48,603 bases of DNA from a virus: IMG/VR virus record IMGVR_UViG_3300030419_008186, positions 1 through 48,603 of that record; one strand, 5' to 3'. The position numbers and the translations under genes were made by a program. This document shows, piece after piece, positions 5,374 to 45,914 of this stretch. The notes beneath the pieces are model-generated. The model saw only the letters and a list, made by a program, of their open reading frames with translations, did no database searches and was not told the origin of the DNA. Numbering within the stretch: the stretch's first letter is position 1; the number at the start of each line of letters is the position of its first letter.

Positions 5374-5379
5374 TTACAC
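5374..5379 (-). promoter_or_regulatory. GTGTAA motif upstream of the tail fibre gene
   Basis: On the minus strand GTGTAA follows a run of A residues and ends 12 nt before the fibre ATG. It lies in the only non-coding stretch between the gpJ-like gene and the fibre. It belongs to the set found in every larger gap and is proposed as a promoter element; no function has been shown. Confidence 0.5.
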
Positions 5380-5397
5380 TTTTTTATCATTTTACCG

Positions 5398-8300
5398 TCA
5401 GTTTTTCTTTTTAAAAGTAAAACCCGCCTGTACAACGTTCACTTCTTCTAAGTTTTTCATATCAGACCCAATCAAACAACTAATCTTAACGTCTAAAATT
5501 AAACCTTTGTCTGATTCAACAGATTGCACAAATTTTGAATTACTAGCCGCACTGTTCGCCACGGCATCACCAGCTCCAAGTCGCGAAAAATCGACAACGT
5601 CCTGACCTTTACTGTCTAAGGCTTTTATATCCTGGTTTTTGGTTTCTGTCCAGCCATCAACTCCCGTGTAAGTCCAGCTTATTCTGTATTTTTTTAACAG
5701 ACTGCCAGCAGCACTTGCAGGCTTTTTAGGCGCTTTCCACGAAATCTGAACAAATCGACGTGTACTTGGCTCGCCGTAAGTACTATCGCCAGGCTGAAAT
5801 GGTGTATAAACGGCATTAAGTCCCTCAATTTCATAATCAGTAAGATCAACAGGATCTTCTCCTGGCTGCGTTGCTGAGCCCTCTGTGGCCGCGTCACCAG
5901 TCGCCTTGCTCTGCACCGCCTTATCTATTTGGCCAGATCCTCCTATTGCCAGCACAGACACGTTAGCTTTATCTGCTTGAGAATCGTCTTCAGAAGCTGC
6001 AAACTTGCTTTTGTTATACTCCAAACATGAAACTTTATATTGCATACTATTTTCTTCTTCTATGTTCATTACCCTGTACAATACTTCCTGAATTCTTAAA
6101 TCTACATCAGTATTTTGAAGTATCCATATTGCCCCAGGCTTTAACAACCCGACACCTTGCGCATTTTCGTCGTTTAATTCGGTTAAAGTTAGGATTGTTC
6201 TTTGATTTGGAACTTTTCGATCAGTATTTACAGAAGAAACTTTAAATTCTTTTATTTGAGGCTTTCGCAAATCTTTTAAGTCGCCGTCACTTGCTCCGCC
6301 TTTTGTCGAAGCAGCTTGGTCTAAAGATTCTTCGGTCTGAAAACTGCTAGGAATTGCAATTGTAATAATTTGACCTACTACGTTTTCATCTACTTGCGCA
6401 TCTAAAGTGACCTCTCTGCGCTCATTGTTAATGTTTGTAATTCTGCCTCCATATCTTTTTCTGGTTTTATTTTTGTCAATAATTTTTACAACATCACCAG
6501 GCCTCAAATAACTTGCTTCTTTTCCAGTTGTAAATTGAACGCTGTCAGTTTCCAGCTGAGCTGAAAACAAAAACCATTTACCAAGCCTTCTTGCTTGACC
6601 TCTTGAAGTACAACCAAAAGCTACCAGTTCTTTTTCTATAAGCCCATATTTTATTATACCTCCAGCATCTTCAACGTACTCAACTTTAGGCTTAAAGTTT
6701 TCATATTTGTCAACATACCTTACGAGAGCTGTTGTAAACCTTGAGGTTTTTGGAGAACCAGCATAAGTAAAAGATCCGTCTTTTACGTTTGAATTTGTAA
6801 AATTCATAATTGGATCTCTCGGCTTATCAAAAGACGCAAAAACTTTACCACCAACAATGTAAGTTAGCCCAAGAAACACTGAAGACAAATCATTTAAAAC
6901 CTTAAAAGCATCAACTGCAGTTGTTAAATATAAATTTGCCGTGAATCTAGGCTCAAGAATTTCTCTACTTTTCCTAAATTCTGTCGCGCACCTCCCAGAA
7001 GCAGATGTACTATTTATTTTTTGGCCATCAAAAAAGAAATCTATTATTTGTGCATCTCCAGGCAATTCCGTAAAACTTCCATTCAATTTATTTTTGCCGT
7101 ATTCAGCATATCGCTTATAAATTATTGACTTAGGAGTGACATTAGGATCTCTTGTGGTAACCTTGTCGGTTGTTTTGTATTGTTCGTTCATTATGTATTC
7201 CTTTAGCTGCGGATTAAGCAAAAAACATTCGTCAAGAGAAACAGGTCTCAACAATTTAATTACCGCGCTTCCAGGCTTTTCCGTGCCATTCTCGCCAATC
7301 CAAGAATGAAATTTTGTATCGCCATCTTTATCTATAATTTCTCCGTCAACTTGTATATACTCAACAACTCTTTTAACTGGTCTAGCGCCGTTATCCAAAT
7401 CAAAAATCGCTATAGTTGAAAATCTTGGAAACTCGCCAAGGAATTGTCCTTGCGTATCAAAACCATTTATTTTTATATAAATTTCTCCTGTACTGGCCGC
7501 GTCCCCACGAGCATCAGTTACAACTTGAAAATTTCGGTGAGGAAATCTGCTTGGCCAACCTGTTTTTACTAATTCGTCGCAATATTTTCCAAGTTCGTAT
7601 ATATTCCACTTATTAACAAAGTCCGTGTTAATTCCATACTTGCCCAATCCATATCTTTTGTTTGTAATCAAATCATAAAATATCCAAGCTGGATTATCTG
7701 TCCATTGAAGATGCGTTGTACCGTGTTTTTCAAAATAAGCCATCGCTTCTTTTGGCACAACTAAAGTTGGATTAAAGTCTTTTATTTTTGTTCCATTATT
7801 TGGCTGACCGTCACCCGACAACAACACAACGCTTTGTTGTTCGTTTTGTATTAAGTCTGACGCTTTTGATGGGCTAGTGTCAAATCCTGAAACGGTATAT
7901 TTGCATCTTCGTGTAATGTGAATATAATCTAAATACCCTTCAAACGAACTATGTAAACCGTGTTCGCTATTACTTGGGCTAGAATGAATAATTCTGTCAT
8001 TTCCTATTTCTATTGCGCCAGTATTTTTTTGAGTGCCGCTTGTGTATACGAATCCCCTGATGTCGCCCTCGTAAGTTGTTTTGTCACCTTCGTCGGTTCT
8101 GTCTGTCCCGTCAACCCATACATTAAACTTATTACCTTGTCTAGTAATTGCTACATGATGCCATTCATCGTCAGCGACATTAGTAGTAGACTTTACCAAT
8201 ACTTGTAAAGCGGTTGTTGGCTTACCACCCGTGTCGAGAACTTCAACTTTTTGATAATCTCCCGCTAATGGCCTATAATAAGCTCCATGAGTAAAGTATC

Positions 8301-11285: not shown

Positions 11286-11300
11286 AAAAGCGCCTTACTC

Positions 11301-13233: not shown

Positions 13234-13247
13234 TATATTTTGTTATT

Positions 13248-19227: not shown

Positions 19228-19229
19228 TA

Positions 19230-22200
19230 TTACGTTTCACTTGTTACATTACGCAATGTTCCGCCTGTTCTTTTTTCTTCTTTGATTACCGCGAGCACTG
19301 CTCCGCGAATTTTGACCGCTAATTCTTTTTCTTTGTTTCCTGGCTGTCCTTGTGTTGCGGTTTCAGATTCGCCTCCGCCAGAATTTACTGTTATGTTGAT
19401 TGTTGTGTTGCTATCTGTTTTTTGGGAAGTGTTGTTTTGTTGAGTAGCGCCACGTTCTGCCTGCACAACTGATTGATCTCCAACCAAGCCTCCTTGTTGG
19501 TAGCCAATTCTTCCACCACGATTCAGACTATTAAAGAATCCGCTTCCGTGTCTTCTTACCGCAGAAGAGTTCATTACAAATTCTCCGCCCGTTAGTAAAG
19601 CTGGAATGTTGTCAAAATAACCTCCACGTTGCCCACGAGGCATTCCCGCAGTAGTAAAGGCGTGTTTAAATCTAGTTCGCGTATGAGGATTAAAGCCCTG
19701 AGCTCCAAGCTTGAATTTATCCCATGAGCTCATTGGTGTATTTCGATCAGTGAGCCTGAAATTTCCCCATAACTCTTCAGTCGTTACAGGGGTGTTTGGA
19801 TCCATTTTCATTCCATGCCCTTCTGACATCAGCCCCTTGATTCCACCTATTCCAGAACTTATTCCAGCGCTTAAACCTGCGCCAACTATTGTTTGCATTA
19901 ATTGATCTCGCTTGGCCTGTTTAGCAAATTTCTTTTGTATTTGTTCGTTATGATAATTTCTTATATCTGCACGTACGTTTTGCAAAGTTGGATCGTTTGC
20001 ATGTGCAAAGCCGCTTAACCTTGGATCTGTAAGTGTTGCGGGAGCTTCATATTGCGAAAGTATTTTGTCTAATTTTCTCTTGGGAACACCAGAAGCCATG
20101 ATTGGCGATACAAACTTTCCGCCAGCTTGAAATCCTGATATTCCGTAATGTTTTTGTAAAATTTGTCTGAATGAGCTTCTGTTTATGGGTTGATCATTTG
20201 CTCCGCGTAGATTGCTTAATGCGCCTGACCCATAGATGTCCAAGATTTGATCATAATGTGCCATTGCTGCTTTGCCTCCTGATGTTCGACCAACAGACAC
20301 GATGTTATGAAATCTGTCAGACAGCTCTTGTCCACTAAACACACGACCTGTGCCAGCTCCAAATCGACTAAGATTTTCCCGAAGAGCAGCTTCTTTGCTT
20401 CCCATCTCACCTATTAAAGCATCAATGTCTCCCGCTTTTTTACGGGCGCCAGGTTGAGCCACTATCTTGCCTTGAGCAGCCTTATTTCCTCCTTTACGTC
20501 CACCAAATAGACTGCTCAATAAATCACCTATCAAATTAAAAGGAGCCATTAAAATGTTGCCAATACCCTGCATAATGCCACCACCCTTGGCAAATCTTGG
20601 AGCCATATTGAAATTTATAGAATCCAAAGCTTTAGGACCGCCCATTGCTTTTACCGCGTTTCGATTCAAAACGTATTCGCCATCTTCTAGCATTGCTGGA
20701 TTTTTATCTCCAGTTCTTCCGCCAGAAATATACATTCCGTTTTGAGCTTTTATAAATCCGCCTCGTTGCTTGCCTCCAAGCCCAGCAAAAATCCCAGCTG
20801 AAACTTGGTCAGCAATGTTTCCTATGGCACGAGCATTTATCGCTCCAAAAAATGCTATACCAAAATCTCTTAAAGCATCGCTTGCAGAAGCGCTGCCAGT
20901 ACTAACACTTTGCATTGCGCTAGCAAAAGCATCTCTGAAATCTAATGTGACATCTTTTAATGTCATCATAGCTCTGGATTGCTTGGCAGTAGATTCTTCT
21001 TCAATCAAATCATCTAACGTTAGTTTTCTTTCTTGCGCAATTCCTTTAAGCTGTTCCATTAATATAGCGAATTGAGTTTTTGCTTCTCGAGCTTCTGGAC
21101 TGTCTATGTCTCCTATTGATTTATAAAATTCTCCAGATAGCTTTTGTATACCGCTTACAGTTGCACCACCTGGCCCTTCTATCATTTTTCTCATGCCCGT
21201 GCTAAAAGCTGTTTGTGCGGATTCTAGATTTGCTGCTGCGGCTACATTTGCAGATCCACCTCGTTCTCTTAATGCCGCAGCTGCTCCAGAAAACTTGTTT
21301 AAAAATGGATTAGTTAAATCTAACGCAGAAGTTACTGCACCTCTGTTGGCTTGTGCTCTTCGGAAAGATATGTTTCTTAATTGACCACTTAAAGCAATAT
21401 CTCTTTGCTGATTTGTGGTCATAAACGGATTCATTATTGCATTTCTGCCTACGCGATTTGCCGCAAGACTTTCTTGAGCTTGTGCGATTGAGCCTGCAAC
21501 TCCCGTTTGAGTTAAACTTAAATTCATTGCCTGAGCTGCTCTGATGCCTGGTTGAGACATTCTTGCGGTGTCTTTGGCAATGCGCAAACGCATTTCCATG
21601 TTTTCTCGCTCGGCTTTTGTGTTGGCGTCTTCGGCTTTTATGGCTTTTTGTCTTTGTTCTAGTAGTCGAATTTGTTCTCTGATCAACTTTACATCTGCTT
21701 GCGCTGTTGTTCCCGTTCCAGTACCAAAAGTTTCTGGGCCTCCCAGGGGGGATGGGCGATTAAGTCGTACTCCTAGCCCTCCCTCCATTGCGCGAAGCCT
21801 GTCCAGCGCCCCACCAATATCTCCGCCCTCAACCATGCCCCTCAAATACCTATCAAATCGCATTGATGCGTCAGTCGGCGTACCAAAGATACTACCCATG
21901 TCTAGTGTTGCTTGATCAAGAATACCAGCTCTTCTGTTGCCTGCGACCCTGTTAAATTGTGCTCTTTCTAAGCTCGCCAACCCAACTTGTGCGCTTGGCC
22001 CAGTCATCAAGCCAGCGCTCATCAATGCGTTTATTGCGCCAGAACCAGCAGCTACTCCTCGAGCTCCTCTGTTTATACCTGCGGTTCTTTCTAACCCTGC
22101 TCCAAACAATCTATCTTCAAGAAGTCTTCTTTGATCAAGAAGTTTTTGAAAGTTATTTATTTCTGTTGGACTTGGCTTAACTATTGCTTTGGCTGCTTTC

Positions 22201-25200
22201 GATTTTTTAAGGGCGTCTTCAATTATTGCATTAACTTTTTGCATATCGATAGCCCCTCGTTCGAAAATCTCTTTATTGACAAGCATTGAGCTAAAAATTT
22301 GGTGTTGCAAATCTTCATTGTGAGCAAAGTTAGTTGTTAGCGCTTCTACGCTGTCAATATACCTTTCCATATCTCCAACGGACGCGCCTTCCAAGTTTTC
22401 AGTAAACATAGCTCTTACTTCAGGAGTAAACCCGCGTGCATCAAACTTTTTCTTGATAGCCTCAAAATCCAGCTTCTCGGCGCTGCTTATAAGATCTCCT
22501 TTTGTTTTTGTTTTTGCAACCGCTTTTAAATCTGTCATTATTTGCTCGGGCCCAAAGACGCCCCCTCCCGTTGCTAACATGTTAGCTATATTAGAGCTAG
22601 CGAGCATACCAGCCGCAGGAGTTCGTGCAGTGAAAATACTACTCAAGCCTTGGACTCCCTTCATTGTTCCAATTCTTTTTTGATTGTTTTCTGCTTCTTG
22701 AGTTTGTATTCTTAAAACTTGCTGGCTTTTTTCTTTTACAGTTAATTTGTCATTTTCTAAAACTTTTGATATTTTTGTCCTGGCATCCGCGGAATCAATT
22801 TTAGCTAGCACTTCTTGAATTGCAGTGTTAGCCGCAAGACGCTCGATCGCGGTTCTTTCCATGTCTGAAGCGATTGCAAGGTTATCACGTATGCTAGTCA
22901 TCTGACCGACTTGCTCAGAGCCTCTTTCTTGCAAGAACTGAGTTCCCATTGCAAATTCTTCTCGACTTAAAAATCCTTTTCCTTGACGTGGGCCTCCGAA
23001 AAACGCCATGCCTCCGCCAATTGCTGCACCGCCAAGGGCTCCGTAGCCAAGTCCCCTCATGGCACCACGGCCAATTCCGCCTGCAATAGCCCCTTTGCCA
23101 GCTGTGCCTGCAACAGCCGTTCCACCCCTAGCGGCCATTCGTAAGCCAAAAAGTGTTTCTCCAACTGGAGTTGGCTCAAGTAGCGCGAGCCCTAATAATG
23201 CAGCATCCAAAGCTAACATAGCGCCACCACCCACCAACGCACCAGTTTGTGCACCAGATATCGCTCCAGCTTGCGTAGCATCCATTCGCGCCATATCTGC
23301 TCCAGCTCTCCTGCGCTGTTGTGGGGTCATGAAAAATCTTTCTTGTGCTGTAGGCTGATCAACAAATCCTCTAGCCATTTCAAAAGCAAACGGAGCCATC
23401 ATTGCAACTTGAGCCATTGGGTGAGCTAAAGCTGCACCAGCTGCGCCCATCAAACCTCGCCCAGCGCCCATTACTCCGCTCACCCCAGCTCTGCCAGCGC
23501 CCCCTATGCGCGATAACATTCCTGGTCGACTCGCGGGAGCTCCGCCAGTGCCAGGCATATCTATTTTTATTCTTGGAGCGGGACCCGCAGGAGCAGCAGG
23601 CGGCGCTCCACCAGCTATTCTCGCCGCTCTGGCAGAATGAACATCAGTATAAGCTGGCTTGCTTACTGCGGCACCCATGTCTGCTTTTGCAGTTTCGCTC
23701 ATTCCGACCAACTTGACATTAGCAGGGGTTCTGCGCTCGACATTTTCTACATTTCTTCTTCTTCCGTCTCGTGTGTCTTGTGGCCCTCTTGTTGACGGAG
23801 TAGCTCCTGGAAATGCTGCCTGGGCTGCGCCTGGAAACGAAGGTTTAAAGTTTGGAAGATTTGCTGTTCTTAAGTCCTCGCCTTTGTGCATTCTCCTTGC
23901 GTCTGCAAAACTACGCTGTCCTATTGTGGGAGATATAACCCCGAATCCTTGTGGATTGAAAGAACTTTTTAACGCTGTGTTTTGTATTACTTTTGTTTTT
24001 ACGCTTGATGGGGAAATTCCAAGCATTGCGCCGACTTGATTTTTTTCTCTTGCAATTGCGTCTCCAACTGGGGCAAAACCAGGAATCCTACGAAACATAC
24101 TAAAGAATCTTCCAATCCCTGTGCCTCTTGGCTGCATGTGACTTGGCGCATTCGCGCCAATCGAACCTAAAAATTTGCCATGTGACTCTCGGAACCCAGC
24201 TTGAATTCTTTCTCCAAGCGGACTGCCACCAAACATATCATATAATCTTCGCTTTGCTCTAAACGATTTGAGTAAAGCTCCTCCTATATTACCGCCGTGC
24301 CTGCTAAAACTTGGATCTTGCCCGCGGGCAGCTTTGTTTTCAAGTAGTCTGTTTTTGACTTCTGTTGGCACTCCTGCTGAATTTACCGCGTCAACAATAA
24401 AGTCTCCACCAAGGCCCTGTCCGCTTCCACCAATTCTGCGGACAAGCTCAGCTTCTACTGGACCAGCATTCATAAGAGTTTCCAAAGATGTTTTTGCTCC
24501 ACGAGATATACCCGCATTATTTAACGCTTGGGTAAATGCACTAATAGGACGTCCATGAAAAACGCCCTCGCTTGCTGCTATATTTCTTGCATCCGCCAGA
24601 ATAGCTTGATACCTTGGGCCAATTTTGTCTTGCCCAATTTCTAAGCCTCTTGAGCTTCCGTAAGTTCTATCAATAAAGTCACCAACGTCAGCAGCTGATA
24701 CTGCAGCTCCAGGCGCCAACTGAAGATTAGCTGATATACCTGTTATTTTGTTCTCCTTAAACCAAGCTTTCATATTTGCTTTCAGGTTAGCTTGGGCTGA
24801 TTTGGACTTATCAAGGCTTTTTAGAAGTTGGCTTATAGTAAAGTTTTGTCTCCCACCAGTTCCAGCTAAAACTTCTGCACTAGCAATTGGAAAAGTATCT
24901 CCAATATCCAAAATTCCACCACTTATATCACCAACTGCAAAGTTCGGAGCAAACCCAGGTACTCCTCTTACAGCCGCTCTAGCACCAGCACCTTTAGCGG
25001 CTAATGTTCCAGCACTACTTACTCTGAATCCCGCGCCATAAGCGCCTGCAGCCATAGAGCCAGTTAAAGCCGCCGCGCGTTGTCTTAGTGCAACTTCTTT
25101 TGCTAAAAATCCTTGAGTAATAGCAGATTGCTTGGCAACATTACCTGCAGCAGCAGCCATCGCCTGTTCATACGCAACGTTTTTTGCCAACAATTGGCCA

Positions 25201-26615
25201 ATACCTTGTTGTAATGCTGCTTGTTGTTTTGCTGCAGCATTAAGCCCTAATAAATTCTTTAAACTTTTAACGCCGAATACAGCCAAGTCTTTAAACAATT
25301 TTAAAAACACTCCACCAATAACAACTAAACCTGGCCCAGTTATAATATTGCCAATTCCCTTGAGTAGTCCTTGTGCAAATTTTGAGCCCGTTCCCTCGCC
25401 GTCTAAAACGCCAGTTATTCCTTCAACAATATTTTTAAAGCTTTGGACTAAGTCTCTCATACCTGGAGCTAGCGCGATGTCACCAATTTTTTTAGCTAAT
25501 TCTTCTAAGGCTAATCCACTTTGTGTAGCAAGCGCGGCAATTGTTTGATTTAATTGGTTATTCTTTTGAATAGCTTGATCGGTTGCGCCTGCTGAAATTT
25601 GAGTAGCTCTTGCAGCTAAACTATTTTGTTTGCTCAAGTCTCCGACTGCAGCTTTTAAAATATTGATCTGAAACACACCAGCGACTTGTTGGTCAACTGC
25701 AACTTTTGCAGATCGAGAAAGGCCATCATATTGTGTAGCCAAATTTTTAAGAATTTTACTTGCAGACAAGCTTTTTCCCGCAGTGTCGTCTACAGCAATA
25801 CCTAACGACCGTAAAGTATTTAAAGTTTCTGGTCTTTGTACTCTGGTGAATATTGTTTTGAATGCGTTACCAATCACAGGACCACCACGTGCAGTTACTT
25901 GCTGTGCGGCAGTAACCATACCAACAAGCTCGTCCAAGTCCATGCCTGCTTGTTGCGCAACAGCTCCAGTTCGACTTAACGCAGCAATCAAATCATCGGC
26001 ACTAACAGCAAATTGAACGTCAACTGCAGCCAACTTATTAATAATGTCTGTGGTTGTAAGTCCAGCTTTTCCAAAGCCGTTAACTGCTGCAGTTAAACCT
26101 TTTACCGAGTCGGCAGCTTTTAATCCCGTTAATCGAGTAAGTATAAGAGCATCATTTGTTCGTCTTAATGTTTCTTCGATGCTTAAACCTTGACGTGAAA
26201 ATTCTAAAGCAGCTTCGGAGACGACATCAAAGCTTTGAGCTGTATTTTTTGCAACTTTAAATAAGCCATCTCCAAACTTTTGGATATTTGCGGTACTAGT
26301 GTTAAGAACAACATTAATGTCTGTTAATGTTTTTTCGACTCGAACTGTGGTTTCTACCAATTTTTTGAATGCATTACTAATTCCATTAATAACGCCCACA
26401 CTAGCTCCAAATGCAATAACACGGGCATTAGAAGCTTCGATTGATTTTGTAAACTCGTCTGCATCAGCACGTATCCTGCCCATCATTCTTCCTAATGGGG
26501 CAACTGCTCCTGCCGAAGAACCTAGTTTTCTGAATGCGCCACTAGCTCCTCTCTCGATCGAAGCCGAGAGCATTCTTTCGTCCGCCTTTACTGGAATTAC
26601 GATTGGTTTGGCCAT
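19230..26615 (-). CDS. Tape measure protein
   Basis: A 2461-residue tape measure protein, which sets tail length. The N-terminal ~400 residues match the TP901-type tape measure core (VEKTLTDINVVLNTSTANI, VSEAALEFSRQGLSIEETLR, AALSRTGAVAQQAGMDLDEL, GNAFKTIFTRVQ). Hydrophobic segments lie near residues 430-460, 1110-1150 and 2015-2040. The C-terminal half has two GG...L..GE(Y/F)V(L/M)N..AV motifs near residues 1975 and 2340, common near tape measure C-termini. I start at the ATG at 26615 because the frame beyond it begins with TTG and an AAGGA lies 11 nt upstream of the ATG. At about 1.5 angstrom per residue the tail would be near 370 nm. Scattered antisense open frames here are composition artefacts. 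Confidence 0.95.
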   Translation of the reverse strand: MAKPIVIPVKADERMLSASIERGASGAFRKLGSSAGAVAPLGRMMGRIRADADEFTKSIEASNARVIAFGASVGVINGISNAFKKLVETTVRVEKTLTDINVVLNTSTANIQKFGDGLFKVAKNTAQSFDVVSEAALEFSRQGLSIEETLRRTNDALILTRLTGLKAADSVKGLTAAVNGFGKAGLTTTDIINKLAAVDVQFAVSADDLIAALSRTGAVAQQAGMDLDELVGMVTAAQQVTARGGPVIGNAFKTIFTRVQRPETLNTLRSLGIAVDDTAGKSLSASKILKNLATQYDGLSRSAKVAVDQQVAGVFQINILKAAVGDLSKQNSLAARATQISAGATDQAIQKNNQLNQTIAALATQSGLALEELAKKIGDIALAPGMRDLVQSFKNIVEGITGVLDGEGTGSKFAQGLLKGIGNIITGPGLVVIGGVFLKLFKDLAVFGVKSLKNLLGLNAAAKQQAALQQGIGQLLAKNVAYEQAMAAAAGNVAKQSAITQGFLAKEVALRQRAAALTGSMAAGAYGAGFRVSSAGTLAAKGAGARAAVRGVPGFAPNFAVGDISGGILDIGDTFPIASAEVLAGTGGRQNFTISQLLKSLDKSKSAQANLKANMKAWFKENKITGISANLQLAPGAAVSAADVGDFIDRTYGSSRGLEIGQDKIGPRYQAILADARNIAASEGVFHGRPISAFTQALNNAGISRGAKTSLETLMNAGPVEAELVRRIGGSGQGLGGDFIVDAVNSAGVPTEVKNRLLENKAARGQDPSFSRHGGNIGGALLKSFRAKRRLYDMFGGSPLGERIQAGFRESHGKFLGSIGANAPSHMQPRGTGIGRFFSMFRRIPGFAPVGDAIAREKNQVGAMLGISPSSVKTKVIQNTALKSSFNPQGFGVISPTIGQRSFADARRMHKGEDLRTANLPNFKPSFPGAAQAAFPGATPSTRGPQDTRDGRRRNVENVERRTPANVKLVGMSETAKADMGAAVSKPAYTDVHSARAARIAGGAPPAAPAGPAPRIKIDMPGTGGAPASRPGMLSRIGGAGRAGVSGVMGAGRGLMGAAGAALAHPMAQVAMMAPFAFEMARGFVDQPTAQERFFMTPQQRRRAGADMARMDATQAGAISGAQTGALVGGGAMLALDAALLGLALLEPTPVGETLFGLRMAARGGTAVAGTAGKGAIAGGIGRGAMRGLGYGALGGAAIGGGMAFFGGPRQGKGFLSREEFAMGTQFLQERGSEQVGQMTSIRDNLAIASDMERTAIERLAANTAIQEVLAKIDSADARTKISKVLENDKLTVKEKSQQVLRIQTQEAENNQKRIGTMKGVQGLSSIFTARTPAAGMLASSNIANMLATGGGVFGPEQIMTDLKAVAKTKTKGDLISSAEKLDFEAIKKKFDARGFTPEVRAMFTENLEGASVGDMERYIDSVEALTTNFAHNEDLQHQIFSSMLVNKEIFERGAIDMQKVNAIIEDALKKSKAAKAIVKPSPTEINNFQKLLDQRRLLEDRLFGAGLERTAGINRGARGVAAGSGAINALMSAGLMTGPSAQVGLASLERAQFNRVAGNRRAGILDQATLDMGSIFGTPTDASMRFDRYLRGMVEGGDIGGALDRLRAMEGGLGVRLNRPSPLGGPETFGTGTGTTAQADVKLIREQIRLLEQRQKAIKAEDANTKAERENMEMRLRIAKDTARMSQPGIRAAQAMNLSLTQTGVAGSIAQAQESLAANRVGRNAIMNPFMTTNQQRDIALSGQLRNISFRRAQANRGAVTSALDLTNPFLNKFSGAAAALRERGGSANVAAAANLESAQTAFSTGMRKMIEGPGGATVSGIQKLSGEFYKSIGDIDSPEAREAKTQFAILMEQLKGIAQERKLTLDDLIEEESTAKQSRAMMTLKDVTLDFRDAFASAMQSVSTGSASASDALRDFGIAFFGAINARAIGNIADQVSAGIFAGLGGKQRGGFIKAQNGMYISGGRTGDKNPAMLEDGEYVLNRNAVKAMGGPKALDSINFNMAPRFAKGGGIMQGIGNILMAPFNLIGDLLSSLFGGRKGGNKAAQGKIVAQPGARKKAGDIDALIGEMGSKEAALRENLSRFGAGTGRVFSGQELSDRFHNIVSVGRTSGGKAAMAHYDQILDIYGSGALSNLRGANDQPINRSSFRQILQKHYGISGFQAGGKFVSPIMASGVPKRKLDKILSQYEAPATLTDPRLSGFAHANDPTLQNVRADIRNYHNEQIQKKFAKQAKRDQLMQTIVGAGLSAGISSGIGGIKGLMSEGHGMKMDPNTPVTTEELWGNFRLTDRNTPMSSWDKFKLGAQGFNPHTRTRFKHAFTTAGMPRGQRGGYFDNIPALLTGGEFVMNSSAVRRHGSGFFNSLNRGGRIGYQQGGLVGDQSVVQAERGATQQNNTSQKTDSNTTINITVNSGGGESETATQGQPGNKEKELAVKIRGAVLAVIKEEKRTGGTLRNVTSET

Positions 26616-26639: not shown

Positions 26640-26645
26640 TTACAC
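26640..26645 (-). promoter_or_regulatory. GTGTAA motif upstream of the tape measure gene
   Basis: On the minus strand GTGTAA follows a run of T residues and is followed by ATATAAGGATA, ending 24 nt before the ATG at 26615. The AAGGA between motif and start is one of the clearer ribosome-binding sites in the window. The same arrangement (GTGTAA then ATATA) occurs before the gene at 32151. Confidence 0.5.
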
Positions 26646-28738: not shown

Positions 28739-28798
28739 ATTTTAACCTTAAACCTAAATATCTTTACACAAAAAACAATAAAAAGTGTAAAGAAAAAC
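28739..28798. promoter_or_regulatory. Divergent control region with CTTTACAC/GTGTAAAG inverted repeat
   Basis: This 60-nt gap separates the minus-strand tail operon from the plus-strand neck block. A perfect 8-bp inverted repeat, CTTTACAC at 28762-28769 and GTGTAAAG at 28785-28792, places one GTGTAA facing each way. Distances are 25 nt to the left ATG (28738) and 8 nt to the right ATG (28799). It reads naturally as two back-to-back copies of the window's recurrent motif. A transcript hairpin is the alternative reading, but the 15-nt A-rich loop and lack of a U-run argue against a terminator. Confidence 0.6.
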
Positions 28799-30748: not shown

Positions 30749-30858
30749 TAAGTGTAATCTAAAGTATAAAGTTAACTTTTAACTTTAAAATTTAAAAAAA
30801 ATTTCACATTAACGGTAAAATACTGTAAACAACAATAACCTTAACCTTATAAAATATT
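30749..30858 (+). promoter_or_regulatory. Leader region of the first tail-tube gene
   Basis: This 110-nt gap is very AT-rich. GTGTAA lies at 30752-30757, 101 nt before the ATG at 30859. A perfect 12-nt palindrome, AAAGTTAACTTT, lies at 30768-30779, with another TTAACTTT just after it. The start codon has no recognisable Shine-Dalgarno and is preceded by TATAAAATATT. The long leader is unique in the window and precedes a presumably very abundant tube protein. Transcription control and mRNA stability are both possible roles; the sequence does not decide. Confidence 0.5.
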
Positions 30859-32107: not shown

Positions 32108-32140
32108 TTACACCACGATTTTTAATTGTGGTGTAATTTT
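32108..32140 (+). terminator. Terminator hairpin after the first tail-tube gene
   Basis: TTACACCAC (32108-32116) and GTGGTGTAA (32128-32136) form a perfect 9-bp stem, extendable by a G-U and an A-U pair, with a loop of about 7 nt followed by TTTT. It starts 28 nt after the 30859 gene's stop. The 3' arm contains GTGTAA, which also stands 14 nt before the next ATG at 32151. The site may therefore combine termination of paralog 1 with initiation of paralog 2. Confidence 0.75.
32131..32136 (+). promoter_or_regulatory. GTGTAA motif upstream of tail-tube paralog 2
   Basis: GTGTAATTTTATATACAGG leads into the ATG at 32151. The motif is inside the 3' arm of the terminator-like hairpin. CAGG stands too close to the ATG to be an ordinary ribosome-binding site, but the start is fixed by the MSRNRIIY match to MARNRVIY. 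Confidence 0.5.
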
Positions 32141-32150
32141 ATATACAGGC

Positions 32151-33850: not shown

Positions 33851-33851
33851 C

Positions 33852-34271: not shown

Positions 34272-34290
34272 GATATTATTATACTATACC

Positions 34291-34321
34291 TTACACCTTT
34301 AAATTCTATTGAGAATTACAC
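34291..34321 (-). promoter_or_regulatory. Two GTGTAA motifs upstream of the SAP-like gene
   Basis: On the minus strand GTGTAA occurs at 34316-34321 and again at 34291-34296, 25 nt apart, ending 44 and 19 nt before the ATG at 34271. The second is followed by GGTATAGTATAAT, which also contains a good TATAAT-type -10. Both lie just downstream of the capsid terminator, as expected for restarting transcription there. This is the only gap with two copies in the same direction. Confidence 0.55.
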
Positions 34322-34343
34322 TTTTAAGGGTCTAAATAGAAAT

Positions 34344-34370
34344 AAAAAAACCCACTCCCGAAGGAGTGGG
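34344..34370 (-). terminator. Strong rho-independent terminator after the capsid gene
   Basis: On the minus strand CCCACTCC (34370-34363) pairs perfectly with GGAGTGGG (34358-34351) around a TTCG tetraloop, and a run of seven T follows (34350-34344). It lies 27 nt after the capsid stop. The stable UUCG loop, GC-rich 8-bp stem and U-run make this the clearest terminator in the window. Confidence 0.92.
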
Positions 34371-34397
34371 TTTATAAAACAACAAACTAAATGTTGA

Positions 34398-35549: not shown

Positions 35550-35580
35550 TTTCTTTGATTCCTTTCTATGGTTTCTAAGA

Positions 35581-36303: not shown

Positions 36304-36315
36304 AATGCTTGATTA

Positions 36316-37950: not shown

Positions 37951-37987
37951 TTTATTTTATTGATAAAGCCTGGAACTACAAAAAGTG

Positions 37988-37993
37988 TTACAC
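37988..37993 (-). promoter_or_regulatory. GTGTAA motif upstream of the protease-scaffold gene
   Basis: On the minus strand the gap reads AAATGTGTAACACTTTTTG; the motif ends 37 nt before the ATG at 37950. It could drive the protease, decoration and capsid genes up to the terminator at 34344-34370. No Shine-Dalgarno is visible; the ATG follows CAATAAAATAAA. Confidence 0.5.
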
Positions 37994-38001
37994 ATTTATT
38001 A

Positions 38002-40005: not shown

Positions 40006-40014
40006 TTGTTTTAA

Positions 40015-40020
40015 TTACAC
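40015..40020 (-). promoter_or_regulatory. GTGTAA motif upstream of the portal gene
   Basis: The motif ends 9 nt before the portal ATG at 40005. If it were a -10-type element the transcript would be nearly leaderless; if it lies in the transcript it would be part of the ribosome-binding region. It is directly preceded by the AAAGTTA repeat cluster. Confidence 0.5.
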
Positions 40021-40021
40021 G

Positions 40022-40059
40022 AAAGTTATGAAAGTTACTTTTAAAAGTTTAAAAAGTTA
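40022..40059. repeat. AAAGTTA repeat cluster between terminase and portal
   Basis: AAAGTTA occurs at 40022, 40031 and 40053, with a variant AAAGTTT at 40044, so start-to-start spacing is 9, 13 and 9 nt. It fills most of the 56-nt gap between the large terminase stop and the portal. A related palindrome (AAAGTTAACTTT) lies in the tail-tube leader at 30768. It could be an operator or just AT-rich sequence. Confidence 0.5.
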
Positions 40060-40061
40060 CT

Positions 40062-41936
40062 TTAATTTATAAACATTGGAGTAAAAGTAGATACAACTTC
40101 CTTTGGCTTAAAGTTCATTATATCAAAATGTGTTTTTACCATCCAATTTCCTAATACTAAGGCAGAATAGCTATCTTTTCTAGCTTTGTCGCGACCAGAT
40201 TGACGTTTTAGATTAGATGGCAAGTCAAAAGTTTGAGTTCCTTGGCTTGTGGTTGTTATCTGAATAAGTGCGCATTCCACTTTTGTTAGCTCTATCATAT
40301 CTGACTGATGCTCAATAAAGTCTATCATTTTTGCCTCTTTGCTCATTTTCTCGTTAGACTCTCCAGTCCTAAGGTATTTAAGATTTTCAATTGGTATGCT
40401 TTTTCTTTTTTGAACTTGATAAGAATCGTCAATAGCCCTGGATCCAAAAAATATTCTTTTATGATCAAAGTTAGACTGTAGCAGCTCATTAGCCTGACGA
40501 ATCCAATTACTTGTTGGCTTTCTTAAATAACAAATTTTATTTTGACTTTTATTATATTCGTTTCTAGCTTTTTGTAAATCGGCATTGTAATTTTCAGGCT
40601 TTTCAAAATCACAATCTATTATGCCTAAGTTCAATTTGTCTTTCTTGAAAATTTCACTTTCATTACAAGCGCTAATAAATTGCACGCCACCAGCATAGTC
40701 TCCAATTATCATAACTACATTAAAGTTTAACAATATGTATGCCATGTATCTTATATGATCTTTCATTGGAGCCCCCGACAAGGCGTAGCTATGCACAACA
40801 GTTCCAAATTGCTTTTCTTTATTCAACTTGAAAACTTGTATTGCAAAATCATCTGAACTTTCACTTTCAGCCCAGCTAGGGTCAAAGGCTACTAAGTATT
40901 CTGCCCCAGCTTCTCCAGCGACTTCGACAGAAGGACTTTCGCCATCAGGTATTACGCATTCAGCCATTTTAGAAATTTTAAAATATCCACTACTATCATC
41001 AGTAAACCTAGCCCCAAACTCTCGCTCAAACTGGCTCTGACTCATTGTAGATTTTGCCTGGTTAATTAAATTTTGGTCATATAATTGTTTTGGAGCGCAG
41101 TCATAAGAGAATTGCATAATCGTTCTGTGAGCAGTGTCGGTAGAACTTTGATTAAATATTAAGTCTTCGAACTGGCTATACAGTTTAAACATATATTCGA
41201 ATTTATATGATGCAGAAGATAACGCAATTAACTTATTATTTGGCCAAACATATCTTTCCTCTTCGGTCATCTTTCCTTGATTAATCAAATCTGTTTCAAG
41301 GTTATATAAATCTTCTCGTTGAGTTGGGTTTTCTACTACAGATAAAAACGGAACAATAACTTCGTTATAAATTCTTTCTGGCATTAACAAGAACTCGTCA
41401 ATAATAATTCTATGAAAGCGAAATCCACGTAATTTTTCACCATCACCCAATGGCAAAGCCCTGATCCTAGACCTCCCTATTTCCATGAGCCATTCATCAT
41501 TGCTTTTACTTTTTTTTGTTATGCATTGTGCAAACAGAGCAGCTTCAGGCTTTGCTGCAATATCTTCAATTTTTTTAAATATCATTTTTGCCTGCCTAAA
41601 TGATTTGGATAAAATACCAATTTCAACTCCTTGATTTAAAACCGCATCTAACGCAGCAAAAATTGCAGTAGTAAAAGATTTAGACATTCCGCGAGACCAA
41701 ACGCCCATAAAGTAATCTGTCTCAAACATAGCCTTAACAGACATATGTTGAAATGGAAACAGCTTTATACCCATCAACAGATCAGCGGCGAAAGTTGTAT
41801 TTTCTCTTAAAAAATTATAAAGATATAACTTAGCCTCACGCTCCTCGATAAACCCTAAATCTTTATCAAGTAGTCGCTCGTTGATGTTTCGGTATTTGCT
41901 TTTTCTGTGTTTTTGATTTCCTTCTTGCCAAGCCAT
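40062..41936 (-). CDS. terL: Terminase large subunit
   Basis: A 624-residue DNA-packaging motor and nuclease. The ATPase domain has an adenine-binding Gln63 (FPFQH), a Walker A-type loop at 81-88 (SRGMSKSF), Walker B Asp180-Glu181 (IIIDEF) and a coupling motif near 237-243 (IALSSAS). The nuclease domain has Asp352 (VAFDPSW), Asp413 (IIGDYAGG) and Asp588 (RKDSYSALVLG). The ATG at 41936 overlaps the upstream nuclease gene by 71 nt. I keep it because the frame and composition continue to that point, but a later start is not excluded. It acts with the portal, and with a small subunit probably encoded at 42842. Confidence 0.95.
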   Translation of the reverse strand: MAWQEGNQKHRKSKYRNINERLLDKDLGFIEEREAKLYLYNFLRENTTFAADLLMGIKLFPFQHMSVKAMFETDYFMGVWSRGMSKSFTTAIFAALDAVLNQGVEIGILSKSFRQAKMIFKKIEDIAAKPEAALFAQCITKKSKSNDEWLMEIGRSRIRALPLGDGEKLRGFRFHRIIIDEFLLMPERIYNEVIVPFLSVVENPTQREDLYNLETDLINQGKMTEEERYVWPNNKLIALSSASYKFEYMFKLYSQFEDLIFNQSSTDTAHRTIMQFSYDCAPKQLYDQNLINQAKSTMSQSQFEREFGARFTDDSSGYFKISKMAECVIPDGESPSVEVAGEAGAEYLVAFDPSWAESESSDDFAIQVFKLNKEKQFGTVVHSYALSGAPMKDHIRYMAYILLNFNVVMIIGDYAGGVQFISACNESEIFKKDKLNLGIIDCDFEKPENYNADLQKARNEYNKSQNKICYLRKPTSNWIRQANELLQSNFDHKRIFFGSRAIDDSYQVQKRKSIPIENLKYLRTGESNEKMSKEAKMIDFIEHQSDMIELTKVECALIQITTTSQGTQTFDLPSNLKRQSGRDKARKDSYSALVLGNWMVKTHFDIMNFKPKEVVSTFTPMFIN

Positions 41937-42852
41937 AATTTCTTGCGTCTATATAATATTGTAAATCGCAATACCAAATTTTTCTGCCAAAATATAAAAT
42001 TCTTTGAATCAAATCCATTGACGTTGTTCTATTTCCAGAAAAAATAAATTGACACGTTTCTGGAAATTCATGACATAAAGCCTTCATATTATGAAAAATG
42101 AATTTCAAGTTTGCTTGATGAGGAGAAAAATGGTTTGCTTTTTTTATTTTTTTAATGTCACTATCAACAACAACAAAAACATAACTGTCCATCGCTTTTG
42201 CTCGAGAAATTTCTCTTCTGAACCTATTAAAGTTTTGAGACATCGTTCCTTTAAAATCATTCTCGCTTTTTCTTTCGACAAAAGTATAATCATATTTATG
42301 TCCGCTCGCAGTGTAATCCGCAAAGTCCAACGCAAATTTTTTTGTATTTTTAAATGGAAGTGGATGGTTTTCTCGAGTGTCAATAACTATTTCTAAATCA
42401 CTAAAATCCTCTATACTAAAAAACTCTTCGGGCAGTTTTCTATACAACATCGGGCTTACTCCAGCCTCTTTACATGCATGTGAATAACTTGTAAAAAACT
42501 TTTTGTAAATGTCGACCGTGGGAAGCTCGCTCAATAACAACTCTAAATGAGTTGGCCCAAACTTTAGATCTTTGTCTGAAATTCTTTTTTTTAGTTTTTG
42601 TAAACAATATTTTTTGGCGTTTTCTGGAGTGGTTCTATGACACCATTTTAGCAACTGACTATATGTGGAGAAATCTTTATCAAAATAATCCGCTTTATTT
42701 TTAAATGGAAGTAAATCCCCAGTTAATAAATTCTTTCTGGGAAAATGCTTAGTATAATAATCTGCCAAGTTCATATCATGCATTTTGACATGCCTATGAA
42801 GCGATGCTTCTCCGCCAAACTCCTTATCACATTCTTTGCAGTTAAATGACAT
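41866..42852 (-). CDS. C2H2 zinc-finger/ERCC4-type nuclease
   Basis: A 328-residue protein. The N-terminus is a classic C2H2 finger: Cys5, Cys8, Phe12, Leu18, His21 and His25 at canonical spacing. A helical linker follows. Residues 155-200 carry an ERCC4/XPF nuclease core: IVIDTREN (Asp158, Arg160, Glu161), ADY at 178-180, and VERKS (Glu193, Arg194, Lys195). The C-terminus is a basic tail (ARRKSKTQKKQIPK). ERCC4 nucleases cut branched or structured DNA. Lying between the terminase-small-subunit candidate (11-nt overlap) and the large subunit, it may trim branched DNA before packaging or help choose the packaging site. Nuclease family firm; role inferred. Confidence 0.8.
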   Translation of the reverse strand: MSFNCKECDKEFGGEASLHRHVKMHDMNLADYYTKHFPRKNLLTGDLLPFKNKADYFDKDFSTYSQLLKWCHRTTPENAKKYCLQKLKKRISDKDLKFGPTHLELLLSELPTVDIYKKFFTSYSHACKEAGVSPMLYRKLPEEFFSIEDFSDLEIVIDTRENHPLPFKNTKKFALDFADYTASGHKYDYTFVERKSENDFKGTMSQNFNRFRREISRAKAMDSYVFVVVDSDIKKIKKANHFSPHQANLKFIFHNMKALCHEFPETCQFIFSGNRTTSMDLIQRILYFGRKIWYCDLQYYIDARNYGLARRKSKTQKKQIPKHQRATT

Positions 42853-43894
42853 CTTCTTTTCTAACTCCTAAAACCCTAGACTTCCAGTCAGACATCGACT
42901 CGATTTCATCAGCTTCTTTTTTAACAATTTGCTTTTGCATTTCCGCCATTTTAATCATAATATTACGCTCCTCTTCTTCTTGGAATAATTGAACGATATT
43001 TAATATACTTGCAGTTTGTTCATTTTTTGACGCCACTCTTTTTGCTCGATCGCCATTCAGCTTTGTGATGAGCTTGTCCATACGCGATGCGCATTGATTA
43101 TACTCTTCACTTTTGGTTTTTAAAATTTCTGTTAATCTAATTGTAAATTCTTGCTGGTCTTGGGCGTCATCGAACATTGAATTTAGTTTGGCTTTTTGCT
43201 GTTCAATATGTTTTAGGTTAATATAGTCCATGCATACATTAATATATAAATTAATTTCATCTGAAGTTAAATCTGGTTTGTCCCAAACACATCTTACAAA
43301 TTCCGCCTCAAACAATTCCCTGTCTTCTTGAGATCCATAATTATTGATTACTTGTAAAAATCTCGGGCTAGATAAAAATCCCATTAGTGTTTCTGCGCAT
43401 TTTTTATCTTGCATTTGCAACTTGCTTTCATCTAAATCCCTTCCTGCAAAATCATTTATTTTTTTGATAGAGCGAGACAATGCTTTTGGCGGGCTATACT
43501 TTGTTCCCAGAGCACTTTCTTCTGATTTTACAAAATCTGGATGATGATTTTTAATATAATCCGCTACAACCCTTTGCTCTTTAGACAGTTTTTTAATTTC
43601 TTTATTTGGCCACAAAAGTTCTGCGAGTTGAATACTACTCATATTTTGGCCAGCATACGAATCTAAAAATTCTTTTTCTTCTTCTGTTAAAATAATGTCG
43701 TCAACCTTTTGGTGGCTGCTGGTCGCATAATTCAACCCTTCTGCAACCATAAACTTTCTTATAGCCCTGCCAATTTTACTTCTGCCATCTAGGGCTTCAT
43801 CTCCAGACACCATTTGAGTTAATCTAGTTAAGTCAGAAATTGATTTATAGTTATTCCTAATTAACTGTTCTTGTTCTTTAGTTAGTTGAGTCAT
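42842..43894 (-). CDS. Candidate terminase small subunit
   Basis: A 350-residue, mainly helical protein. The N-terminal ~60 residues look helix-turn-helix-like (EQLIRNNYKSISDLTRLTQM, then GRSKIGRAIRKFMVAEGLN). A second such unit lies at about 70-115 (NMSSIQLAELLWPNKEIKKL), and a long coiled coil follows (QKQIVKKEADEIESM near the end). DNA-binding N-terminus, oligomerising helices and position just upstream of the packaging genes fit a terminase small subunit, but I see no family signature and the protein is longer than most. It overlaps the sigma-like gene by 17 nt and the nuclease gene by 11 nt, so it is translated as part of that operon. Confidence 0.45.
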   Translation of the reverse strand: MTQLTKEQEQLIRNNYKSISDLTRLTQMVSGDEALDGRSKIGRAIRKFMVAEGLNYATSSHQKVDDIILTEEEKEFLDSYAGQNMSSIQLAELLWPNKEIKKLSKEQRVVADYIKNHHPDFVKSEESALGTKYSPPKALSRSIKKINDFAGRDLDESKLQMQDKKCAETLMGFLSSPRFLQVINNYGSQEDRELFEAEFVRCVWDKPDLTSDEINLYINVCMDYINLKHIEQQKAKLNSMFDDAQDQQEFTIRLTEILKTKSEEYNQCASRMDKLITKLNGDRAKRVASKNEQTASILNIVQLFQEEEERNIMIKMAEMQKQIVKKEADEIESMSDWKSRVLGVRKEDVI

Positions 43895-44606
43895 TTACGA
43901 TAATAATGTCTTTTTGCCTTATAACTGTTACCGCTTTTTCTTTAAACATTTTCTTTAAATTCTTTATTTGCTTGTATCCTGCTTTTCTATTTTTTTCATT
44001 AGTAGTATAACCAAGCTTTTTTGCGACCTCGTCTTCTGATAAATTTTTTACAAATAAATCTTCATAGACTTCATAATGCTTTTCGGTTAAAATAAACTTC
44101 ATTTCCACATGAAGTTTGGTAATAGAGTTTGACAGGTCAAATTCGCTTGAAGCAATTGAAAATACTTCTTGATGATGATTTTCCAGAGCTAATGGAAGTT
44201 TGATATCATAAGCATGTTTTTTTCCTTTTTCCCATTTGGCGTACAGTTTACATTCACTACATTGAATTCCACTTGGAGTAAATGCACATAAATTTTCATG
44301 AGTAGATTCTTGTTGGCCAGATTGACTAAACGGACAGTTTAAACACGGACGGGCAAAGTTGCTATAATTATTTCTTAAAATATTTTTAAGCTGATTTGAT
44401 ATGATTCTATTAACCCATGGCTCTAGTGGTCTTTTTTGATCCCACTGATCCCATTTTTTAAAAATGTGAAAACGAATAATTTGCTCTACATCTTCAAAAT
44501 CAAACCAAGCAACAGCATTTAAATGCCATTTGTGTTTTCTTTTTTGAAGCTCTTGATCAATGACAGATACTTTGTCTTCGTATTTTATTTTTTTTCGCCT
44601 TGGCAT
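43878..44606 (-). CDS. ECF-like sigma factor with cysteine-rich insert
   Basis: A 242-residue sigma-70-family-like protein. Residues about 35-85 match region 2 (DFEDVEQIIRFHIFKKWDQW, PWVNRIISNQLKNILRN). Residues about 172-225 match region 4 (LTEKHYEVYEDLFVKNLSED, EVAKKLGYTT). Between them five cysteines (Cys88, 91, 107, 116, 119) form a probable zinc site where ordinary sigma factors have a linker. I start at the ATG at 44606 because it overlaps the upstream stop (TAATG); the GTG at 44639 would overlap that gene by more than 30 nt. It probably redirects host RNA polymerase to phage promoters; the recurrent GTGTAA motif is the obvious candidate target. Confidence 0.78.
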   Translation of the reverse strand: MPRRKKIKYEDKVSVIDQELQKRKHKWHLNAVAWFDFEDVEQIIRFHIFKKWDQWDQKRPLEPWVNRIISNQLKNILRNNYSNFARPCLNCPFSQSGQQESTHENLCAFTPSGIQCSECKLYAKWEKGKKHAYDIKLPLALENHHQEVFSIASSEFDLSNSITKLHVEMKFILTEKHYEVYEDLFVKNLSEDEVAKKLGYTTNEKNRKAGYKQIKNLKKMFKEKAVTVIRQKDIIIVNDSTN

Positions 44607-44998
44607 TAATCCACTGATCGAGTTTTTGAACTGGCACACTCACGAATAGATTCAGCTTCCAACTCTTCACGAGATTTTGGCGTTCCTCTACTAGCGTTCG
44701 ATGATCTCTCAAATCTTTCGTCTCCTTCTTTTTTTGTATTTATAAGATCGCCGATTGTCTGCTTTTTTTGAACTGAATCAACGGTATATTCTAATTTGTG
44801 TATATTTGGAATAGATGCGGCTTCAGGCTCCTCCTGCTGCACAGCAGCACGTGTAGACTGCGAATTATTAATCGCAGCATTTGATTTCTTGTTCCCCGCC
44901 TCTTCTAGAAGAGATTGGCCACAGCCAGCGCAAAACTTAGCTCGTCTTGTGGTAAAAACGTTTTTATAACCACATTCTGTACAGTATATAAATGGCAT
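44606..44998 (-). CDS. Zinc-ribbon protein coupled to the sigma factor
   Basis: A 130-residue protein with an N-terminal zinc ribbon (Cys6, Cys9, Cys23, Cys26: CTEC then CAGC) and a long polar, probably disordered C-terminal half (NNSQSTRAAVQQEEPEAASI; ERSSNASRGTPKSREELEAE). Its stop and the sigma ATG share TAATG, so the two proteins are made together and may act together, for example as a polymerase-binding accessory. A role in packaging or structure is also possible. The start at 44998 has an A/T-rich leader without a clear Shine-Dalgarno. Confidence 0.7.
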   Translation of the reverse strand: MPFIYCTECGYKNVFTTRRAKFCAGCGQSLLEEAGNKKSNAAINNSQSTRAAVQQEEPEAASIPNIHKLEYTVDSVQKKQTIGDLINTKKEGDERFERSSNASRGTPKSREELEAESIRECASSKTRSVD

Positions 44999-45040
44999 AT
45001 TTTATATTAATATGTTTAAATAAATTTTTCCATTTATAGG

Positions 45041-45046
45041 TTACAC
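45041..45046 (-). promoter_or_regulatory. GTGTAA motif upstream of the zinc-ribbon/sigma operon
   Basis: The motif, in GATTGTGTAACCTATAAATG on the minus strand, ends 42 nt before the ATG at 44998. If the coupled sigma factor reads this element, its own operon would be positively autoregulated. Confidence 0.5.
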
Positions 45047-45054
45047 AATCTTTT

Positions 45055-45858
45055 TTAAGTTTTCCTTTTGGTTCTGGTCTTTGTGGTGGCTTTATTTTCT
45101 TGTTTATGAGCTATTTCAATCTTTTCAACAATAAATTTTAAAATTTCACTTCTGAGAATATCTTCTTTATAAAAGTCAAAACAATGAATTCCCTTTGCCG
45201 CAGACTCTTTGTCGTTAAAAAGATCCGCCATTCTTGCGAACCCGCTTTTGCCATTGATATCGCTTTGCATTGGATCTCCACAAATAAACAATTTACTGTT
45301 TTCCCCAAGCCTTGTGATTAATGTTGTTAGTTCTTTAAAGGTAAAATTTTGAGATTCGTCTGCAATAATAATTTTATTTATCCAATTAGATCCTCTTAAA
45401 TAGTTTATTGGCAGAGCGTTTATGATTTTCTTTTGCTCTAAAAAGTTTCTGTCTTGTGATGATATAATCTCCTCAAGCTTGTCATTTAACGGAAGCATAA
45501 AAGGATTAAACTTTTCCGAGACATCTCCTGGTAATGCCCCAAGTCCTTTTTCTCCGCTTTCTGCTATGGTACGAATATAAATAATATCATAATCATTATT
45601 TATGTTGAATAATTGAAGTGCGCTATATACCGCGAGATAAGTTTTGCTTGTTCCCGCTGGGCCTCTTACAAACATAGCTTTTGTATCTTTTGCTATTGAA
45701 AGCTTGAGGAACTGTTTTTGTTTTTCTGTAAATTTTACTGGATTAGTTTTAATCTTTTTCTTTTTTAATGAACTCATGCAATCCAAAATTACTTTTTCGT
45801 CAATTTCGCAACTAACATCAGCATTAGACACCGCCCTTGAAGAACTTTTTCTGGCCAT
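45055..45858 (-). CDS. phoH: PhoH-like ATPase
   Basis: A 267-residue P-loop ATPase of the PhoH family. Walker A is GPAGTSKT at 66-73, Walker B is IIIADESQN with Asp167-Glu168, and the sensor-type GDPMQSD is at 194-200. SGEKGLGALPGDVSEKFNPF is also diagnostic. PhoH proteins are common in marine phages; their role is unsettled, with RNA-related helicase activity suggested for some members. The start at 45858 lacks a clear Shine-Dalgarno (ACATTTAAAACATG). A 6-bp hairpin lies in the leader. Confidence 0.93.
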   Translation of the reverse strand: MARKSSSRAVSNADVSCEIDEKVILDCMSSLKKKKIKTNPVKFTEKQKQFLKLSIAKDTKAMFVRGPAGTSKTYLAVYSALQLFNINNDYDIIYIRTIAESGEKGLGALPGDVSEKFNPFMLPLNDKLEEIISSQDRNFLEQKKIINALPINYLRGSNWINKIIIADESQNFTFKELTTLITRLGENSKLFICGDPMQSDINGKSGFARMADLFNDKESAAKGIHCFDFYKEDILRSEILKFIVEKIEIAHKQENKATTKTRTKRKT

Positions 45859-45883
45859 GTTTTAAATGTAAGTATTATTGTTA

Positions 45884-45899
45884 ATGGAATAACTTCCAT
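45884..45899 (-). promoter_or_regulatory. Short hairpin in the PhoH leader
   Basis: ATGGAA and TTCCAT form a perfect 6-bp stem around a 4-nt loop, between the GTGTAA at 45909 and the phoH start. No U-run follows on either strand, so it does not look like a terminator; it may be an operator or an mRNA leader hairpin. Confidence 0.4.
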
Positions 45900-45908
45900 C
45901 AATGTATA

Positions 45909-45914
45909 TTACAC
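45909..45914 (-). promoter_or_regulatory. GTGTAA motif upstream of phoH
   Basis: The minus strand reads ATTTTTAGTGTAATATAC; the motif ends 50 nt before the phoH ATG and begins just after the stop of the propeller fusion gene. The T/A-rich run before the hexamer matches most other copies. Confidence 0.5.

Follow-up and report, generated by a model that had tools for sequence, protein, structure and literature searches.

GTGTAA and its variant GTGTAT almost certainly act, judging from their placement and conservation, as the phage's own late promoter before virion and packaging genes in a large family of uncultured marine phages. We consider it highly probable that GTGTA(A/T), written GTGTAW below, is a single late-promoter core element read by host core RNA polymerase together with a phage sigma-like protein. 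An earlier, sequence-only reading of this DNA had proposed that GTGTAA is either a core promoter element of a phage-specific class or a conserved leader signal. The first proposal is supported by the enrichment of the hexamer and its gene-by-gene conservation, by the near-exclusion of sigma-70 sites, by an initiator-like step fixed at nucleotide 9, and by Shine-Dalgarno sites that are confined to genes whose implied leader has room for them. The second is disfavored, because in the most common spacing class the element would sit upstream of the transcript.

In the mechanism we propose, host core RNA polymerase would carry the phage sigma-like protein encoded at 43878-44606 to the element. The hexamer would occupy positions -14 to -9, so that TA(A/T) would roughly coincide with a -10 box and GTG would stand where an extended -10 does. 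In the most common layout, the hexamer followed by 8 nt and then ATG, transcription would begin on the A of the ATG and yield a leaderless mRNA; a more distant element would give a leadered mRNA, often with a Shine-Dalgarno site. Early genes would be served by host sigma-70 promoters (TTGAC-N17-TANNNT), many of them leaderless too. Because such an element also stands at the head of the operon containing the sigma gene, late expression may reinforce itself.

The window, by which we mean the whole stretch of DNA analyzed, is a 48,603-base IMG/VR virus record whose genes include tail, terminase, PhoH-like and sigma-like genes. Genes were called by open reading frame length, and start codons come from a simple open reading frame rule. 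The first 25 kb of the window has no nucleotide match among 50,697 phage records, its terminase is 22-28% identical to isolate terminases among the matches listed, and the isolate collection that we searched contains no close phage. Related terminases occur on four MAG contigs, whose names disagree: unnamed bacterium, Halobacteriovorax, Flavobacteriaceae and Verrucomicrobiales.

GTGTAA in the intergenic gaps of the window and its relatives

The sequence-only reading had listed twelve GTGTAA copies, and we found every one of them where it had been placed, facing its downstream gene. It had also claimed that the hexamer marks all gaps of at least 36 nt and none of the shorter ones, at 8-101 nt from the start codon. 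These distances are correct, and GTGTAA points toward the downstream gene in 10/10 gaps of at least 36 nt and in none of the gaps of 31 nt or less. With the divergent gap taken twice, there are 11 directed gap reads totaling 729 nt; GTGTAA occurs in 11/11 of these, with 12 copies in all, while every other hexamer occurs in at most 7/11. The claimed excess over expectation likewise survives shuffling: 2000 dinucleotide-preserving shuffles of the gap reads gave a mean of 0.43 copies and a maximum of 5. Across the whole window GTGTAA is not enriched (23 observed, 21.3 expected), so the signal is purely positional.

Most of the copies lie on the minus strand. The element at 5374-5379 is 12 nt before ATG 5361, the start of a long gene extending beyond the window. 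At 26640-26645 it precedes a gene of 2461 aa (19230-26615), and the spacing of 24 nt requires that this gene start at ATG 26615 and not at TTG 26639. Further minus-strand copies are found at 37988-37993 (37 nt before ATG 37950), at 40015-40020 (9 nt before ATG 40005 of a 667-aa gene adjoining the terminase), at 45041-45046 (42 nt before ATG 44998) and at 45909-45914 (50 nt before ATG 45858 of the PhoH-like gene). The gene starting at ATG 34271 has a minus-strand tandem, with one copy 19 nt away at 34291-34296 and the second 44 nt away at 34316-34321; the two are 25 nt apart, and a strong terminator-like hairpin at 34348-34373 directly precedes the pair.

A back-to-back pair consists of a leftward half at 28764-28769 (minus strand, 25 nt before ATG 28738) and a rightward half at 28785-28790 (plus strand, 8 nt before ATG 28799), the latter predicted to be leaderless. 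Also on the plus strand, the copy at 30752-30757 is 101 nt before ATG 30859 and is found at the equivalent position in three relatives (L005, L006 and L007), and the copy at 32131-32136 is 14 nt before ATG 32151. This last copy forms the right arm of a terminator-like hairpin at 32108-32136 on the plus strand (TTACACCAC..GTGGTGTAA then TTTT, 13 pairs), so that the hairpin and the promoter of the next gene overlap and use the same bases. An extra intergenic copy at 32108-32113 on the minus strand points the wrong way and is the left arm of the hairpin, which is retained in four relatives (L005, L006, L007 and L013).

The sequence-only reading had suggested a motif search in relatives as a check. 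We examined 475 upstream regions from 80 IMG/VR terminase relatives and found GTGTAA to be the most enriched hexamer, with 165 copies observed against 9.7 expected from dinucleotide composition or 1.5 from the coding rate. GTGTAT, the second form, ranks third behind the overlapping AGTGTA, and GTATAT and GTGTAC are enriched more weakly at the same position. Because the element in the relatives is GTGTAW, counting GTGTAA alone gives too few.

Conservation was counted gene by gene among nonredundant, diverged orthologues. GTGTAW lies upstream in 19/24 orthologues of the 33852-34271 gene, 18/21 of the 36316-37950 gene, 20/23 of the 38002-40005 gene and 16/18 of the PhoH-like gene. Retention is weaker for the 30859 gene (4/10 orthologues) and the 32151 gene (7/14), and the 44606 gene has the element in 4/17 orthologues with a gap. 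For genes that have no element in the window, none was found in the orthologues either (0/14 for the 34398 gene, 0/7 for the 35581 gene and 0/9 for the sigma gene), and the reversed motif, counted as a control, occurs at most twice per gene. In unrelated control phages, only 2/15 and 1/28 gaps have the element. Counted in this way, TATAAATA does show up in the T4-like phage HTVC008M, and AATGTAT in phiEco32.

A second feature marks the gap that separates the 38002-40005 gene from the terminase. At 40021-40061 it contains ACTTT repeats, often in the form AACTTT, with AAAGT, and the equivalent gap has 2-5 copies of ACTTT in 19/20 nonredundant relatives. The repeats are not present in the other element-bearing gaps. 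They may be terminase-binding iterons of a packaging site, or activator sites.

Two promoter classes and the candidate reader

We compared promoter classes in four large records of 126-211 kb. Regions with many small genes contain gaps that have no element; for example, the element occurs in 0/31 gaps at 0-20 kb of G025 and in 0/31 at 70-100 kb of G001. CTTGACA is enriched in such element-free gaps in three of the four records. TTGAC-N16-19-TANNNT is found in 52/266 gaps without the element as against 1/64 with it (p = 9e-5), and in 1/330 reversed gaps; its spacer is 17 nt in 46/54 sites. By this count, element gaps are not of the host sigma-70 type (TTGACA-N17-TATAAT).

The sampled genes behind sigma-70 sites encode RIIA, RIIB, ribonucleotide reductase, polymerase, ligase, helicase, methyltransferase and endonuclease. 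The sampled element genes encode a PhoH-like protein, a protease and one ribonucleotide reductase and are mostly unannotated, most motif-class proteins having no annotated family; in the window, the element class covers the head and tail gene blocks. Judging from these gene functions, we infer that sigma-70 sites serve early genes and the element late ones. Because a few non-structural genes have the motif (a ribonucleotide reductase in G026 and an ATP-dependent protease in G024), "late" may mean "middle and late".

The operon behind the 45041 element encodes, in order, a zinc-ribbon protein, the sigma-like protein, a protein of unknown function, an ERCC4-type nuclease and the terminase. The sigma-like protein (43878-44606, minus strand) comprises region 2, a four-cysteine linker and a region-4-like helix-turn-helix. 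Its Sigma70_r2 match, at 7.7e-5, is slightly below the Pfam cut-off, and the ECF profile TIGR02937 matches residues 42-214 at 2.5e-5, under the curated cut-off. A sigma region 2 match was obtained in 7/7 large relatives searched, above the cut-off in 5/7. In an alignment of 26 relatives the four cysteines and the C-terminal helix-turn-helix are conserved, and the stretch KKWDQWDQ..L.PW.NKII.NQ.KN..RN, which lies where region 2.3-2.4 would be, hardly varies.

The AlphaFold model of this protein has a mean pLDDT of 71.6 and a pTM of 0.38. Its two helical domains are confident and its linker is poor, so that the domain order is clear and the overall shape is not. The region 2 domain of the model matches RpoE 5uxx (VIA) with Z 8.4 and 2.2 A over 75 residues, and the C-terminal domain matches sigma region 4 domains with Z about 7. 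A Z near 8 is middling for helical domains, but the matches listed for the model are overwhelmingly sigma factors. Foldseek with the sigma model returned no match at E <= 0.001, and comparing the sigma profile with the sequences of solved structures gave no match either. Among isolate phages we found no relative of the window's protein, and one weak match to a diverged sigma relative. Taken together, profile matches and model suggest that the protein has both region 2 and region 4 of the sigma-70 family and is ECF-like. From co-occurrence and analogy we infer that this sigma would be the reader of GTGTAW.

Two neighbors in the operon deserve mention. The zinc-ribbon protein (44606-44998, minus strand) has weak matches to zinc-ribbon families only; its gene is co-transcribed with the sigma-like gene, and it could be an accessory factor. 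The gene just before the terminase (41866-42852) encodes an N-terminal C2H2-like zinc finger and an ERCC4-type nuclease domain.

The hexamer could also be a promoter element with another reader, whether a second phage sigma, a host alternative sigma or the host's sigma-70, redirected by a protein of the phage such as the zinc-ribbon protein. We regard this as unlikely, though it is the strongest of the alternatives. A second, different sigma region 2 match exists in four large relatives (G024:134086-134274, G026:147270-147470, G025:90087-90227 and G002:89009-89143; weak in G025 and G002), perhaps a middle-class sigma. In addition, a zinc-ribbon gene adjoins the sigma gene, and TA(A/T) is positioned near the -10 register. 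However, G001, G027 and G028 carry the element and gave only one sigma match each, these records being shorter and maybe incomplete, and the window-type sigma is the one that has relatives at the same operon position.

As to the polymerase, a search for the beta subunit PF00562 gave no match in seven relatives while its controls worked; a phage subunit could be strongly diverged, or encoded in parts that the records lack. The profile for the T7-type polymerase, PF00940, was silent in the seven relatives, whose records may be fragments, and in every control genome as well.

Predicted start point, leaders and arrangement of the elements

Elements are most commonly 8 nt (40 sites) or 9 nt (24 sites) away from the start codon, and many copies lie 20-105 nt upstream. 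Where the spacing is 8, a pyrimidine precedes the ATG in 38/40 genes, compared with 195/442 comparison genes (p = 8e-11). The spacing-9 class does not have this preference (13/24), and its exact start is therefore less clear. We also considered 93 sites with a spacing of at least 14 nt, where the start codon cannot cause a pyrimidine-purine step. In 45 of these such a step falls at nucleotide 9 after the hexamer, the mean elsewhere being 23 (p = 8.5e-7). The step is not seen after the 211 copies that lie within coding sequence of the window and the large genomes, in agreement with the earlier caution that the hexamer alone is not sufficient.

A step at nucleotide 9 most likely means that the hexamer spans -14 to -9, in which case the modal spacing of 8 nt would put +1 on the A of the ATG. 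In the window just 2/12 copies, those at 28785 and 40015, belong to the 8-9 nt class, and only these two promoters are predicted to be of the near-leaderless kind. Shine-Dalgarno-like sites occur in 1/81 genes with the element at 7-10 nt and in 20/68 with the element at 18 nt or more (p = 3.5e-7), as expected if near elements give leaderless and far elements leadered mRNAs. The 101 nt between the element and ATG 30859 (30758-30858), similar in L005, L006 and L007, would form a long leader; the protein encoded behind it may be an abundant component of the virion.

For the sigma-70 -10 boxes of the same genomes, the commonest distance from box end to ATG is 6-7 nt. By the standard numbering of a -10 box, from -12 to -7, an end at this distance corresponds to +1 on the A, and the early genes thus also look leaderless. 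Sites in this register were seen in the early regions of G024, G025 and G001 (L129-L131, L140 and L161-L163).

We think it very improbable that the hexamer is a translation signal, that is, a ribosome-binding sequence replacing Shine-Dalgarno 8-9 nt before the ATG. The modal spacing does resemble that of a ribosome-binding site, and genes of spacing 8-9 have no Shine-Dalgarno sites. But the copies 20-105 nt upstream often come with a Shine-Dalgarno site of their own, the operon-internal genes of the window need a ribosome site yet have no element, and the step at nucleotide 9 persists when the start codon is distant. GUGUAA, moreover, cannot pair with the anti-Shine-Dalgarno CCUCC, which counts further against this explanation.

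We give equally little credence to an operator built from TTACAC/GTGTAA half sites, at which a repressor or activator of the phage would bind, in place of a core promoter. Inverted pairs do exist, at 28764-28790 and 32108-32136 in the window, and 25/119 nonredundant divergent gaps have elements in both directions. Such pairs, however, are found where genes diverge or at a terminator-like hairpin, their halves can be anywhere between 7 and 51 bp apart, most copies are single and directed, and motif gaps have no other recognizable core promoter such as sigma-70. Chance, an AT-rich hexamer landing in gaps, is already refuted: although the whole-window count matches expectation, no shuffle gave more than 5 copies against the 12 seen, the relatives are independently enriched, and the control phages have it in just 2/15 and 1/28 gaps.

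For the core promoter that we favor, the arrangement of the elements bears on whether a -35 box exists. Some divergent elements are just 7-8 bp apart, and the window's own pair 15 bp, which leaves little space for -35 boxes in the closest pairs. When 5-mers at fixed distances upstream were counted, no well-supported one exceeded 12/181 sites. The best candidates, TTCTC (at -20) and GTCAC (at -19), do not look like a general box; their likely sources are the coding ends of orthologues and the repeats in front of the 38002 gene. Counting against our reading, the sigma-like protein carries a region-4-like domain, normally the reader of a -35 box, yet a common upstream box was not found.

Significance and comparison with known systems

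The phage family is widespread in IMG/VR, where at least 599 stretches encode a terminase relative. With a reliable late-promoter signal, early and late genes could be separated and operons drawn from sequence alone, and many unannotated genes could be assigned to an expression program via the element. The system offers a single sigma and a single element for experiments, and a -10-type element locked to the start codon bears on how leaderless expression arises in phages. On balance, we favor the broader view that a whole uncultured family of large marine phages runs its late program on the undescribed element GTGTAW, with a new type of sigma and with leaderless mRNA as the default both early and late. 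The sigma would then combine regions 2 and 4 with a four-cysteine linker that is possibly zinc-binding. Searching the literature for this exact hexamer as a phage promoter sequence found nothing relevant by title and abstract.

The element is real and strongly conserved, and the closest described system is that of phiEco32 gp36. That sigma uses a single element, tAATGTAtA, with starts 6-8 bp downstream, and reportedly has no region 4 domain (PMC8948821). The likeness would extend to an ECF-like phage sigma working with host core polymerase, to one element without a -35 box, and to the genes served, with the element in front of middle and late ones and sigma-70 left to the early ones. The two elements share the register NTGTAW, in which the start point predicted here (nucleotide 9 after GTGTAW) would be close to that of phiEco32 (6-8 bp after the 9-mer). 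On the other hand, AATGTAT is present in 0/12 window gaps and in 4/28 phiEco32 gaps, and blastp of gp36 against the window sigma gives only chance alignments (E >= 5.6), although both belong to the sigma-70 superfamily. Unlike gp36, the window sigma has a region-4-like domain, and the leaderless start, apparently common here, is a further difference. With a different element, a different sigma sequence and a region 4 domain that gp36 reportedly lacks, the window does not represent a member of the gp36 type, although the mechanism looks the same.

In phage 7-11, the late promoters of gp47 are bipartite, GTAAtg-N16-aCTA (PMC8948821). A phage sigma, late genes and host core polymerase would be common to both systems; a second box was not found here.

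T4-type late promoters consist of a single -10-type element, TATAAATA, recognized by gp55 with gp33 and the sliding clamp. They would resemble the present system in having a single element of -10 type, late genes and a phage sigma, and they differ in sequence, since TATAAATA occurs in 0/12 window gaps as against 5/15 in the pelagiphage HTVC008M, our positive control. In leaderless genes of the mycobacterial kind, a -10 box lies at a fixed short distance before the ATG and there is no Shine-Dalgarno site. Here, by comparison, the element in that position appears to be phage-specific, and it is used beside early sigma-70 sites that stand in the same register.
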